This document shows positions 54,546 through 63,339 of a stretch of 64,000 nt of DNA, one piece after another. The notes under the pieces were generated by a model. The model was not told the origin of the DNA. It ran no database searches and saw only the letters and a program-made list of their open reading frames with translations. This DNA comes from Pseudomonas bubulae (GTDB lineage Bacteria; Pseudomonadota; Gammaproteobacteria; Pseudomonadales; Pseudomonadaceae). The stretch is from the NCBI RefSeq assembly GCF_037023725.1, contig NZ_CP146077.1, positions 1,091,001 through 1,155,000 on the forward strand, read 5' to 3'. Made by a program: the position numbers and the translations under genes. Positions within the stretch are counted from its first letter, which is position 1. Each line of letters begins with the position of its first letter.

Positions 54546-54595
54546 GTATGGTGGGCCCAGTAGGACTCGAACCTACGACCAAGGGATTATGAGTC
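54546..54595. repeat. attL of the integrated element (3' tRNA fragment)
   Basis: This 50-bp block is identical to 63290-63339 and comprises CCA, acceptor strand, T-arm and anticodon arm of the tRNA(CAT). The 5' half is replaced by element DNA, so this copy cannot be a functional tRNA. Confidence 0.93.
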
Positions 54596-54708
54596 ACAAG
54601 ATTAGTGGTATTGAGCTACCTCGTGAAACATGAAAGTCCCTATTTTTAAGGCTTATAGCTTGATCTGACGTTTCTCGTTGTTTCCTGAAATCCTCTAAAG
54701 TTGCTATG

Positions 54709-54731
54709 ATTCGTTGAGCAATTCGTTAAGA
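54709..54731 (+). repeat. Putative integrase arm site, left
   Basis: ATTCGTTGAGCAATTCGTTA and three more bases match 63213-63235 in 22 of 23 positions and in the same orientation. The unit itself contains ATTCGTT twice, 12 bp apart. It lies between attL and the integrase start. Confidence 0.55.
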
Positions 54732-54748
54732 AAGGAATAGGGCTGAAA

Positions 54749-56137
54749 ATGGCGCAGAAACTGGTTCACAGCAAGATAACAGCATTGAAAACCACGCTTT
54801 CTGAGGCCTTAGAAGGGAAAGGGACGGGTTCTATTCTCTTTGAGCGCCGAGCTACTGGCGTGTTGGTCTATCTGAGTCTGCGCCGAGAGAAAAAGCAGGA
54901 GCGGCTAAAGCTGGGGAACTATTCCGAAAAAACGCTGGTTGAGTGGCGAGCCTATGCCGCTGCGAAGTCGTTGGAGATTCGAGCCTTCCTGACTATTGAT
55001 GACTATCAGAAAGCGGAAGAGGAGCGTCAACGCCTAACCCAACGTGCTGCGGATGTTGAGGCAAGGCAGGGAACGTGGGCTCAAATGCTGAATGCCTACG
55101 TTGACGATATGGAGCGTAGGGGCAAGTCCAGTGCTAGGGCCGTGCGTGGTGCACTGAAGCTGGATGTTCTCGATCCATTCCCTGAGCTGTCGCAATGCAA
55201 GGCCAAGGAAGTCGAACCTAGCGATATTGCGAACATCCTGCGTCGCTGCCTAACTCGATCAGTCGCCAGTAAAGGACGGGGCACCCGCTTGACCAAGGCA
55301 TCTGCAACCAATGGTAAAAAGCGACAGGCAGATAAATTACGCTCTTACCTTCAGGCGGCTTTTTCGTTTGGTCTTGCTAGCGATCTAAACCCGCTACGTG
55401 CTGGTGACGCTGTTCAATACGGACTCAAATCAAATCCTGCGCGTGATGTGCCGACTATTGAAGGCGCCAATCAGGCGAATACCTGGGCGCTGACAAAAGA
55501 AGAACTGAAAGCGGTTGTTCTGGCTGTTGAAGGTTTACCGGCTCGGCGTAGTGCAATTGCAAAAGCGATGCTTTATCTCGCTGGGCAGCGTGTAGAAATG
55601 CTTTGTCGGGTTACTTGGGCAGACATCTATGACGATGGCGAGCATGGGGAAGTGATGCGGCTAATCGACCTCAAGGGCGGTAAAGGGACTCCGCCGCGTG
55701 AGCATCTGTTGCCGATGACTCAGCGACTCTGTGAAATCCTGTCACCGCTATTAGCGCTTCAAGATGCAGGCAAAGCACCTGGGCCGTTCTCTCTGCGTGG
55801 AAAAGTCAGCATTACACCCGGTACTGCACTAGATATTTTCTCAGCGCTTGGCGATCAGCTTTCGACAAAGGGGGAGACCCGCCGTTTCACTTGGCGCACG
55901 TTGCGCGCAACCATCGAAACGCATTTAGCCGCGCTGGGGGTGAATCAGGAGCGCCGAGCATGGTTACTGTCGCATGGTCGGTCAGGTGTGCAAGCAAAGC
56001 ACTATGACCGGTGGAACTATCTACCGGAAAAACGTGCGGATTTAGACAGGTGGGCGCGCTATCTGGATGAGTTGGCGGGAGTGCCGCAGAGTGCGGAAGT
56101 GGTGCAGTTATCGGCACGCAGCGTGGTACGTCAATGA
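54749..56137 (+). CDS. Tyrosine recombinase (integrase) of the element
   Basis: A 462-residue integrase. The catalytic domain is in the C-terminal half: first Arg in AGQRVEMLCRVTW (about residue 279), second Arg in TWRTLRATIETHLAALG (about 385), His in LLSHGRSG and the nucleophilic Tyr in AKHYDRWNYL (about 417). The usual His of the HxxR box appears as Arg, an uncommon but tolerated change. The N-terminal third is an arm-binding and core-binding region. It reads away from attL and overlaps the next gene in ATGA. Confidence 0.93.
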   Translation: MAQKLVHSKITALKTTLSEALEGKGTGSILFERRATGVLVYLSLRREKKQERLKLGNYSEKTLVEWRAYAAAKSLEIRAFLTIDDYQKAEEERQRLTQRAADVEARQGTWAQMLNAYVDDMERRGKSSARAVRGALKLDVLDPFPELSQCKAKEVEPSDIANILRRCLTRSVASKGRGTRLTKASATNGKKRQADKLRSYLQAAFSFGLASDLNPLRAGDAVQYGLKSNPARDVPTIEGANQANTWALTKEELKAVVLAVEGLPARRSAIAKAMLYLAGQRVEMLCRVTWADIYDDGEHGEVMRLIDLKGGKGTPPREHLLPMTQRLCEILSPLLALQDAGKAPGPFSLRGKVSITPGTALDIFSALGDQLSTKGETRRFTWRTLRATIETHLAALGVNQERRAWLLSHGRSGVQAKHYDRWNYLPEKRADLDRWARYLDELAGVPQSAEVVQLSARSVVRQ

Positions 56138-56751
56138 GCTGGCGATTTGAGGAAATGGCGCGCCTGCAAGAGCGCCAGAAGCTGCTAGAGCAACCGCTTG
56201 ACCCTTTAGCAGTTACCGCCCGAGTCCTGGCGATGTTCTCCAGTGTTCTTCCTAGTAAACCCGTGGACTGGGACGGTTATCCGATGCACGTCCGGTCTAT
56301 CTCGTGGCGTAAAGTTGAGGGTGTCACGCGTGCATACGTCGATGGCGTGGATTTGATCGAGGCTGCCGCGACCAACCGTAACGCATGGGATGAGGCTGCG
56401 CGGTTCGCGGCTCAATATATTGAGAAGGGGGAGCCGGTTCCTGAGTTCCTGCGCGTGTTTACTGCCGAGGTGCTGCGTGGGGTGCGACCACGTCCAGCTT
56501 GCAGAGGAAGGCCAGCCGACCCGAACCGGAACTTTGCAATCTGCCTGGGACTGGAGGCGCTAAGTCGTGCAGGCATAAAGCCCACTCGCAACGAAGCCAC
56601 CGAAGATGTGCAATCAGGCTGCGACATCCTGGCCGCGACATTGGGACGCGATACCTCAGCTTACGTCGATATTTGGAAGCTGCGGAAGAAACACCTATAC
56701 GCGCAATCGAGCTGGGAACTCCACTTGGAGCGTCTGCTTGTAGGGGATTAA
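56134..56751 (+). CDS. Unknown protein coupled to the integrase
   Basis: A 205-residue soluble protein with no domain I recognise. Its ATG overlaps the integrase stop by 4 nt, so the two are translated together. The sequence has a helical N-terminus (ARLQERQKLLEQPLDPLAVTARVL), a conserved-looking WDGYP and VDGVDLIEAA stretch and a C-terminal part with CRGRPADPNRNFAICLGLEAL, compatible with DNA or nucleotide binding. The coupling suggests a part in integration or excision control, but this is inference. Confidence 0.75.
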   Translation: MSWRFEEMARLQERQKLLEQPLDPLAVTARVLAMFSSVLPSKPVDWDGYPMHVRSISWRKVEGVTRAYVDGVDLIEAAATNRNAWDEAARFAAQYIEKGEPVPEFLRVFTAEVLRGVRPRPACRGRPADPNRNFAICLGLEALSRAGIKPTRNEATEDVQSGCDILAATLGRDTSAYVDIWKLRKKHLYAQSSWELHLERLLVGD

Positions 56752-56864
56752 TCCCTGATTTATCCCCTTCGCCGAAGCCACTTGTGTCCTATAAAGTCCC
56801 TCTACTTTCACAGCGCACTGATGAATGCAAGGAGGGTGGCGGGCCAGAGATTTTCTTAAATGCG

Positions 56865-56899
56865 ACACAAAAAAGTCGAAAATGCGACATTTTTTGTGT
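56865..56899. other. A/T-rich hairpin with repeated TGCGAC motif
   Basis: ACACAAAAAAGTCG pairs with CGAC-A-TTTTTTGTGT (one bulged A) around a 6-nt loop. Because the TGCGACA motif recurs on both sides, it may be a protein site as well as a terminator for the gene ending at 56751. Confidence 0.55.
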
Positions 56900-57041
56900 G
56901 AGAGAGGTTTGCCAAATAACCTTGATATTAAGTAAATCAAAGGGTTATGAGTAGACGTGACTTAGTAGTCGTCGAATGACTTCAAACTGAAGTTGGGCTG
57001 TTTTTACCAATGGTACAATGAGTGTGTTCCAGAAACACAAA

Positions 57042-57067
57042 AGCCCAAGAGATGAGATTCTTGGGCT
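57042..57067 (-). terminator. Possible leftward terminator in the element control region
   Basis: AGCCCAAGA pairs perfectly with TCTTGGGCT over an 8-nt loop; read leftward it is followed by TTTTGTGTTT. No leftward gene is known to end here, so an untranslated RNA or a decayed gene may be involved. Confidence 0.4.
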
Positions 57068-62510: not shown

Positions 62511-62714
62511 CTATTGGTCAAGCTTGGCTAGGTTTGTTGTTATCTTCTCGACAATTGCGTCTGGAGCGTGGAAGGAAAGTTCGGATGTGGTTTTGTTAGT
62601 TTCGATGGTCACTTCCAAAAGCTCCTCTTCGCTGAGGAACTGAGAAATCATTTTTCGTGCTCGGATTTCCATTTCTTTTGCTAGGTCGAAATTGCCTGTT
62701 CTCTTTATGGGCAT
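62511..62714 (-). CDS. Small unknown protein between the two lipoproteins
   Basis: A 67-residue acidic, helical protein (MPIKRTGNFDLAKEMEIRARK, then EEELLEVTIETNKTTSEL). AAGGA lies 10 nt before the ATG, which supports it as a real gene. No signal sequence; presumed cytosolic. No function can be proposed from the sequence. Confidence 0.6.
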   Translation of the reverse strand: MPIKRTGNFDLAKEMEIRARKMISQFLSEEELLEVTIETNKTTSELSFHAPDAIVEKITTNLAKLDQ

Positions 62715-62744
62715 GAGAGGCTTCCTTGGCTATGTGGTTGTTGA

Positions 62745-63110
62745 TTAGTTTGTGGTCGAGTTGTAAGGGTTTTGTCCCTCGTTGAACGTAAAGTTAATTA
62801 CCGTGTCGTTACGAATCAGCACGTCGAGAGTTTTCTGGGTGCCGGTGGTGGTGACTTTCATGGTGACGATGTAGCTCTGTGCGTGAGCAGAGCCGTTTGC
62901 GTAGGTGTAGACCCACTTTTCATCGGTGTCGTTGACTGGGCTTTTACTGAAGGGGTCGCCAAACAGGGCTTTGAGCTCTGTTGTTGTCGTCTTTCCTTTG
63001 ATGATGCTAGCTACGTTCTCAGATGGGAAATCTCTACCGCTTGTGTAGTGGGAGGTAGCGCAACCGCTAAGCGCCAGGCTCATTGCTAGTACTGCCAGTG
63101 CCTTTCTCAT
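62745..63110 (-). CDS. BamE/SmpA-like small lipoprotein, element cargo
   Basis: A 121-residue lipoprotein: signal ending in LALSGC (Cys about residue 18), then a domain whose start (ASIIKGKTTTTELKALFGDPFSKSP) has the pattern of BamE/SmpA-type folds, in which a helix pair precedes a beta sheet. The rest (KWVYTYANG; VTMKVTTTGTQKTLDVLI) agrees with a small alpha/beta fold. It is the first of three leftward genes and lies about 100 bp from the right arm repeat. Outer-membrane placement is inferred. Confidence 0.72.
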   Translation of the reverse strand: MRKALAVLAMSLALSGCATSHYTSGRDFPSENVASIIKGKTTTTELKALFGDPFSKSPVNDTDEKWVYTYANGSAHAQSYIVTMKVTTTGTQKTLDVLIRNDTVINFTFNEGQNPYNSTTN

Positions 63111-63212
63111 ATCGATCCCTGATGACGTGATTTTTCACAGCATACGCTTGGATGAAATCGAAAGGCTACTACTTGGCGCATGTCTAATCGGTGGCGCGGA
63201 GGCACAGGCCGC

Positions 63213-63235
63213 ATTCGTTTAGCAATTCGTTAAGA
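63213..63235 (+). repeat. Putative integrase arm site, right
   Basis: ATTCGTTTAGCAATTCGTTA plus three bases, one mismatch to 54709-54731 and in the same orientation, about 55 bp from attR. Confidence 0.55.
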
Positions 63236-63251
63236 TTTTCCATCGGAAAAC

Positions 63252-63284
63252 AAAAAAGGCCTACGCCCTTAAGCGTAAGCCTTT
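63252..63284 (-). terminator. Terminator supplied to the tRNA by the element
   Basis: AAAGGCCTACGC pairs with GCGTAAGCCTTT (one mismatch, 6-nt loop), followed leftward by six T. It begins 8 bp beyond the tRNA 3' end and replaces the displaced native terminator at 54521. Confidence 0.85.
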
Positions 63285-63289
63285 GTTTT

Positions 63290-63339
63290 GTATGGTGGGC
63301 CCAGTAGGACTCGAACCTACGACCAAGGGATTATGAGTC
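63290..63339. repeat. attR of the integrated element
   Basis: The 50-bp copy identical to attL, forming the 3' half of the intact tRNA gene. Confidence 0.93.

Follow-up and report, generated by a model that had tools for sequence, protein, structure and literature searches.

A PICMI-like integrative element, probably a phage satellite, in a tRNA(CAT) gene of Pseudomonas bubulae

What kind of mobile element interrupts a tRNA locus of Pseudomonas bubulae, and how might it spread? The locus lies in a 64,000-nucleotide stretch of contig NZ_CP146077.1 (assembly GCF_037023725.1, positions 1,091,001 to 1,155,000), hereafter the window, to whose first letter all plain coordinates refer. The original prediction for its positions 54546-63339, made from the letters alone, was a P4-like integrative element with perfect 50-bp direct repeats, an intact tRNA at its right end, an inward-reading tyrosine recombinase at its left end, a primase-helicase and no structural genes. 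All of these anatomical claims held, and the label had to be changed: the insert is a small integrative element that probably lives as a phage satellite, of a kind resembling the phage-inducible chromosomal minimalist islands (PICMI) of Vibrio (PMC10803314). This reading draws on an exact attachment (att) repeat at a tRNA gene, six relatives at the same site, unoccupied sites at 7 of 54 loci, pairs of putative integrase arm sites and a PICMI gene order, and further on two capsid-bearing elements in which the same replication module is accompanied by terminase and capsid genes. Four features go beyond the original prediction: a 4-nt overlap of a second gene with the integrase gene (int), the paired 12-bp arms, a replaced terminator and two in-frame stops.

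The two att copies, both given on the plus strand, are identical over 50 bp (54546-54595 and 63290-63339; 8744 start to start) and enclose a span of 8794 bp with 51.3% GC, compared with mostly 55-64% in the rest of the window. A complete tRNA gene on the minus strand (63293-63369; Rfam tRNA, 74.4 bits), with the anticodon CAT, has its 3' part in the right copy. ARAGORN called this gene tRNA-Met; its Escherichia coli matches (best 6 of 5942 matched records) were full-length, 84.4% identical and annotated as tRNA-Ile. In tRNA-Ile2 a CAU anticodon is modified and reads AUA. Because the best full-length E. coli matches are annotated as tRNA-Ile, tRNA(CAT) is probably tRNA-Ile2(CAU), which refines the original call. 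The gene also seems to be single-copy, since the other own-genome matches, the left att copy aside, are at most 81% identical among the matches listed (14 of 64 first-look candidates scored). The flanking open reading frames (ORFs) are one of Fic type and one of EAL type. The Fic-family gene (53150-54316), which forms the left flank, is present in the same species and in genome G256, and was unmatched at the left-flank place in P. lundensis, P. mandelii and P. frederiksbergensis.

Is the insertion recurrent, and can the site be found empty? Integrases at least 60% identical to that of the window occurred in 5 of 398 genus genomes, the own genome included (G000, G344, G106, G197 and G169), while any match at E 0.001 extended to 105 of the 398, mostly distant. 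A scan of genome contigs added loci from P. mandelii, P. frederiksbergensis and P. arcuscaelestis. The same tRNA thus holds an element in six relatives whose integrases are 78-97% identical to the window's, namely G344 (also P. bubulae), G106 (P. lundensis), G197 and the three added species; each of the six, like the window element, has two att copies with tRNA(CAT) at the right one. G169 (Pseudomonas sp. FEN; integrase 61% identical) has its copy near a tRNA-Thr gene. A second integrase lineage, 40-45% identical (G276, G289 and G184; loci L030, L031 and L032), occupies the same tRNA with elements of 10-14 kb, and in G302 and G108 the tRNA(CAT) site is not used.

The att core was found within 3 mismatches in 69 of 398 genomes. 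Among 54 loci of about 3-4 kb (one site, that of G007, counted twice), seven had a clean unoccupied site (L043, L053, L055, L056, L061, L063 and L064), defined under strict limits as an unbroken stretch in which a single att copy and the tRNA lie between the left-flank gene and the right flank. At the other 47 loci the site was filled, or one of the flanks had diverged, lay at a greater distance or fell beyond the stretch analysed. Left flanks of 95% identity or more were seen in three genomes (the own genome, G344 at 99.5% and G256 at 95.3%), and each of these has an insertion at the site; that of G256 is an unrelated 13.9-kb island (L169:2513-16407) whose integrase lies at the other end, adjoining the tRNA. 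The integrative nature of the element is borne out by these comparisons; the empty site expected in relatives exists in more distant species, and none was found within the species or its nearest relative among these three genomes.

The gene order is the second line of evidence. From left to right on the plus strand, int (54749-56137, 462 aa; PF00589, 28.4 bits, cut-off 27.1) reads inward and is followed by ORF2 (56134-56751, 205 aa), whose start codon lies within the end of int through a 4-nt ATGA overlap (56134-56137). An AlpA-like helix-turn-helix (HTH) protein (57198-57383, 61 aa; PHROG excisionase/regulator, E 2.6e-5) comes next, then a winged HTH protein (57386-57703, 105 aa; HTH_39, 43.2 bits, cut-off 21.3), ORF5 (57700-57972, 90 aa), which had no Pfam or PHROG match and shows 87-99% DNA identity in three relatives sharing the primase, and a primase-helicase (57969-60314, 781 aa) with RepB_primase, D5_N and DUF5906 domains, all above cut-off. 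A small-gene module and three minus-strand ORFs complete the element. Among the 14 ORFs scanned with Pfam and PHROGs, none was recognised as a gene for a capsid, tail, terminase or relaxase protein, several small genes having no assignment.

In Vibrio, the iolg gene of PICMI overlaps int by ATGA and is required for excision, AlpA is necessary and sufficient for activation, and the primase is needed for replication; the islands are packaged as concatemers in full-size helper capsids and have a variable end between prim and fis (PMC10803314). Their integration hallmark is fis, and complete PICMIs were found only in Vibrio (PMC10803314). The window element shares with them the order of int, a gene with a 4-nt overlap, AlpA, one or more small genes, a DUF5906 primase and a variable accessory end, and it likewise has no recognised capsid-remodelling or packaging genes. 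The gene set used to find PICMI combines an integrase (PF00589), AlpA (PF05930 or PF12728) and a primase (DUF5906 or DUF3987) (PMC10803314); here the integrase and DUF5906 scored above cut-off and the AlpA models just below theirs. The differences are a host outside the Vibrionaceae, a RepB-type primase domain and no known helper, besides the site and size discussed below. Judged by its layout, the element is PICMI-like; judged by its site, it is not a PICMI. A looser model returned 135 elements in complete genomes, 67 in Vibrionaceae and 68 elsewhere, the latter termed "incomplete variants" (PMC10803314). PICMI-like elements outside the Vibrionaceae are therefore already on record, and the window element may be of a listed kind.

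How much of the P4 label survives? We compared 14 window ORFs with the 13 P4 proteins (NC_001609) by blastp to a limit of E 0.1. Distant matches were found for int (E=0.025), AlpA (E=0.001) and the helicase part of alpha (primase 23.6% identical over 365 columns, E=6e-12), whereas P4 sid, psu, delta, epsilon and cI had no match among these ORFs, and no Pfam or PHROG family corresponding to sid, psu, delta or epsilon was found among the ORFs scanned. The P4-like family is defined by seven components of which at most two may be missing (PMC8628076); with four of the seven (sid, psu, delta and epsilon) unmatched, strict P4-like membership was rejected. The attP of P4 does have annotated tandem 12-bp arms at 112 and 53 bp from the core and 15 bp from int, an arrangement much like that described below. 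Its core is 20 bp, compared with the 50-bp repeat here, and the 3' end of the tRNA faces int in P4 and points away from it in the window element, so that the core faces int in the opposite sense. A resident P2-type helper was also rejected, no P2 capsid family being matched in the own genome. It is thus very unlikely that the element is a P4-like satellite in the strict sense, remodelling the capsid of a P2-like helper. The similarity to P4 in three proteins is distant, and the PICMI order appears to fit the gene layout better than the P4-like label. Separately, the own genome has one HK97-type portal gene (G000:C2:3872520-3873506), a possible resident prophage.

The ends of the element carry a further signature. 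A left pair of tandem 12-bp units (54709-54732, plus strand) starts 113 bp from att and ends 16 bp before int, and a right pair (63213-63236, plus strand) lies 53 bp before the right att copy. The unit, ATTCGTTNAGCA with a close variant in tandem, is present at both ends of all seven first-lineage elements, 113-114 bp (left) and 53-54 bp (right) away from the att repeats, with the 16-bp distance to int kept in 7 of 7. The longest word common to the two end stretches of the window element is 15 bases, compared with at most 12 in 2000 base shuffles. In the second lineage (G276, G289 and G184), a different word, AACGGGGAA, with units 11 bp apart, occupies matching places (n=6 arms, the right arm of G276 having a single exact unit); the tRNA-Thr element (L077/L029) did not show the first-lineage motif. 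Matches to the arm motif in two viral contigs (L148 and L149) were dropped, the window's proteins being unmatched there. Position and precedent argue strongly for reading the 12-bp repeats as putative integrase arm sites.

Where would the strands be exchanged? With att positions numbered from GGTGGG, the right (tRNA) copy of P. lundensis differs at positions 12 and 26 from L056, its nearest single-copy locus (89.6% over 1299 bp), and a difference at position 45, relative to the form of the nearest loci, is found in the left copies of G197 and P. arcuscaelestis. Because the right copy differs at 12 and 26 and the left at 45 in these relatives, we infer strand exchange between positions 26 and 45, that is, in the anticodon arm (54576-54593 in the left copy, 63320-63337 in the right). 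Position 19 of P. arcuscaelestis speaks against this interval and would place the exchange earlier, unless a mutation arose in that left copy or the local host had another form; for this reason P. mandelii is ambiguous too.

The insertion also appears to have changed how the tRNA transcript ends. A hairpin that would be the host terminator of the tRNA (54521-54543, minus strand; folding z-score -3.05) adjoins the single att copy in unoccupied loci, for example L043, L053, L056 and L063, and is now parted from the tRNA by the element. Directly downstream of the rebuilt tRNA lies a second, element-borne hairpin (63255-63284, minus strand; z-score -5.46), and a hairpin was found at this place in all four relatives folded. 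The assignment as terminators is based on position, folding and recurrence and not on the pattern scan, which taken alone was not above chance (7 found, 10.2 expected in shuffles); a promoter pattern scan gave 5 against 6.7 expected. On this evidence the element would supply its own terminator for the rebuilt tRNA in place of the host's. No paper on terminator replacement by islands turned up in a narrow literature search, which is not proof of novelty.

Comparison of the relatives reveals a mosaic. In P. lundensis, the stretch from att through int and ORF2 is 91% identical and the cargo end 90-97%, with no DNA match from the intergenic region through the broken 174-177-aa gene described below. 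In G344, identity is 91-99% for att-int-ORF2, ORF5 and the primase and 68-79% over partial length for the intergenic, AlpA and winged-HTH stretches, and the cargo is unmatched. Relatives of ORF2 were found in 3 of 398 genus genomes besides the own one (80-93% in G344 and P. lundensis, a weak match in G288). G197 and FEN instead have a 241-aa gene with an 8-nt overlap with int, and P. arcuscaelestis has a 194-aa gene 43 nt downstream of int. The P. mandelii element carries an extra 191-aa gene (L074:15676-16251), serine resolvase-like by eye. Replication proteins differ as well, with RepB-DUF5906 here, DUF3987 in G197 and FEN, AAA_25 in P. arcuscaelestis and a 901-aa protein without a Pfam match in P. 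lundensis. Going by these alignments, the element is a member of a mosaic family at the tRNA(CAT) site, in which the replication module is exchangeable.

A primase 94-100% identical occurs in only 2 of 398 genomes, the own included, with weak matches in three more; of 331 class genomes, 15 matched, again counting the own, the other 14 weakly and over parts of the protein. Six viral contigs from metagenomes or isolates encode primase relatives (51-58% identical in the best segment), and two of these, both metagenomic, were characterised. L067 holds an element of about 10.1 kb (L067:111-10233) with a 16-bp repeat at a tRNA-Ser gene, tandem arm-like units, int, an ATGA-overlapping gene, an AlpA-like frame (by eye), a primase, a terminase large subunit and a major head protein; a portal was not recognised among the proteins scanned. 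It is a candidate capsid-bearing satellite, seemingly complete. L069 (positions 1-9867) encodes int, an ATGA-overlapping gene, HTH_17, a winged HTH, a primase, a protease-capsid fusion and a terminase small subunit. No close relatives of int or ORF2 were found in the viral contigs.

The primase raises the question of whether the element is instead plasmid-like or mobilisable, replicating by a RepB-type primase after excision and carried by the conjugation of another element. Its RepB_primase domain is of plasmid type (judging by the origin of the name), and a distant primase relative occurs in 442 of 72,556 plasmid records. Of the plasmid records, however, none reaches 60% identity to the primase or aligns over 80% of it, no relaxase was recognised in the scans of the element ORFs, and AlpA and the close gene-order relatives are of phage or satellite type. 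We consider this alternative improbable and retain the phage satellite as the preferred reading.

The small-gene module bears on a further alternative. It comprises two small plus-strand ORFs (60626-60998; 71 and 54 aa, from the ORF list and comparison with relatives), an interrupted gene (60995-61534, plus strand) and the residual frame of a conserved small gene (61644-61850, plus strand). Four relatives (L072, L073, L074 and L075) have the interrupted gene as an open frame of 174-177 aa; here it contains an in-frame TAA at 61205, and the residual frame has an in-frame TAG upstream, at 61617. Either this copy is partly decayed or the assembly has errors at two places. The element could accordingly be a remnant, a former satellite or capsid-bearing element that has partly decayed and become fixed in the strain, a history to which both the stops and the capsid and terminase genes accompanying relatives of the replication module would lend weight. 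Set against it, int, ORF2, alpA, the primase, att and the arm sites are intact by sequence, the 174-aa gene is uninterrupted in the same-species sister G344, several species harbour members of this mosaic family, and the stops are possibly assembly errors. A remnant is therefore unlikely, and a living satellite is still favoured.

Can the remaining genes be assigned? Three ORFs on the minus strand form the right end: a 177-aa cargo ORF (61916-62449) with a lipoprotein-like start by eye and a weak match to PHROG 7678 (E 4.3e-4), a 67-aa ORF (62511-62714; from the ORF list, with no credited Pfam or PHROG assignment) and a 121-aa ORF (62745-63110), also with a lipoprotein-like start by eye, matching PHROG 3135 (E 8.6e-28) and BamE below cut-off (17.3 bits, cut-off 23.2). 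The 121-aa protein is 93-98% identical in two relatives and had one weak match in the phage collection, where the 174-aa protein matched nothing; no relative of solved structure was found with the lipoprotein-like alignment. The 177-aa protein of L075 was modelled as long helices (predicted local distance difference test, pLDDT, 76.7), and its best Protein Data Bank matches, by fold (E 0.42) and by sequence (E 0.76), are not meaningful. No defence gene was found among the 10 ORFs scanned with PADLOC, and a defence role for the 67-aa ORF, whose PDC-S14 match (E 0.018) was the only one from PADLOC, was not credited. ORF2 had no Pfam, PHROG or PADLOC match and its predicted structure was uninformative (mean pLDDT 44.9). 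A search for origin iterons in the element returned isolated short pairs only. Elsewhere, the window contains the RsmY regulatory RNA (39147-39264, 122.5 bits).

Other satellite types were compared as well. Capsid-forming phage-inducible chromosomal islands (cfPICI) carry their own capsid and packaging genes and are the nearest named kind to L067 and L069. Unlike those two, which have terminase and major head proteins, the window element has no recognised structural gene, and a cfPICI identity was rejected. Phage-inducible chromosomal islands (PICI) are marked by a characteristic regulatory region together with a small terminase or genes that redirect packaging; no terminase family was matched in the window element with Pfam and PHROGs, the small-gene module being without assignment. 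Within Pseudomonas, two precedents share a tyrosine integrase and AlpA without transfer genes. One is the intY islands, inserted downstream of the transfer-messenger RNA (tmRNA) gene and differing in gene content and in site from the tRNA insertion here; among them, the AlpA/integrase island I55 is moved between cells by a jumbo phage (PMC12595487). ARAGORN reported no tmRNA within the window. The other is AH14b, an earlier satellite packaged with AH14a, which is 16.8 kb long and has a separate TOPRIM primase, another site and other gene content (PMC4936722). Transfer of the AlpA/integrase island I55 by a jumbo phage makes a virulent helper plausible for the window element. No paper describing the element was found among the open-access literature matches listed (titles and abstract starts).

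How, then, might the element live? It probably spreads in the particles of a helper virus, because no virus-particle genes were recognised and the layout resembles that of the minimal Vibrio satellites. The integrase would bind the 12-bp arms and exchange strands in the anticodon arm; an infecting phage would switch on AlpA, which with Int and ORF2 would excise the element; and the primase-helicase would amplify the excised form. Packaging by a helper phage would follow, probably of a concatemer, given that no gene for capsid sizing was recognised, and the lipoprotein-like genes at the variable end would be cargo, perhaps blocking other phages. The site, the arms and the exchange of terminators can be read from the sequence; for the remaining steps, support falls in the order of phage induction, the role of ORF2, concatemer packaging and the blocking of phages by cargo.

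Several observations weigh against this account. Excision, induction and packaging are putative only. The element lies in a tRNA gene and not at fis, and its 8.8 kb exceeds the 6.7-kb PICMI average. ORF2 resembles iolg by position only; no int-overlapping gene was recognised in the sister elements of P. mandelii and P. frederiksbergensis, and in PICMI such a gene occurs in 21 of 35 subfamilies and is not universal (PMC10803314). The AlpA-like protein reaches neither the HTH_17 cut-off (25.3 bits, cut-off 27) nor that of Phage_AlpA (20.4 bits, cut-off 21). Two small genes have in-frame stops in this copy. The primases of L067 and L069 are 51-52% identical to the window's and come from metagenomes with unknown hosts. 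No DNA beyond the element itself is shared with the rest of the own genome, and the right third of the element returned four phage DNA records at E 0.07-0.9, none convincing.

More broadly, and tentatively, one chassis (an integrase with an overlapping partner gene, AlpA and mostly a winged HTH) may be common to Pseudomonas tRNA islands and capsid-bearing elements, with nearly the attP geometry of P4, and with replication modules (RepB-DUF5906, DUF3987, AAA_25 or the 901-aa protein) and late modules exchanged as cassettes. On that view, PICMI, P4 and capsid-bearing satellites would represent assemblies of exchangeable modules more than separate families, and the int-overlapping gene a general excision partner. 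The complete PICMI plan has been reported only from Vibrio, and the PICMI-like plan described here would bring it to a tRNA site in Pseudomonas. The att, arm and terminator sites matched across seven elements make the roles of the int-overlapping gene and AlpA testable, and a natural system for the evolution of arm specificity is offered by the two integrase lineages, which share the tRNA and differ in their arm repeats. Finally, the replaced terminator suggests that an island may rebuild the end of a tRNA transcription unit, beyond the tRNA alone.

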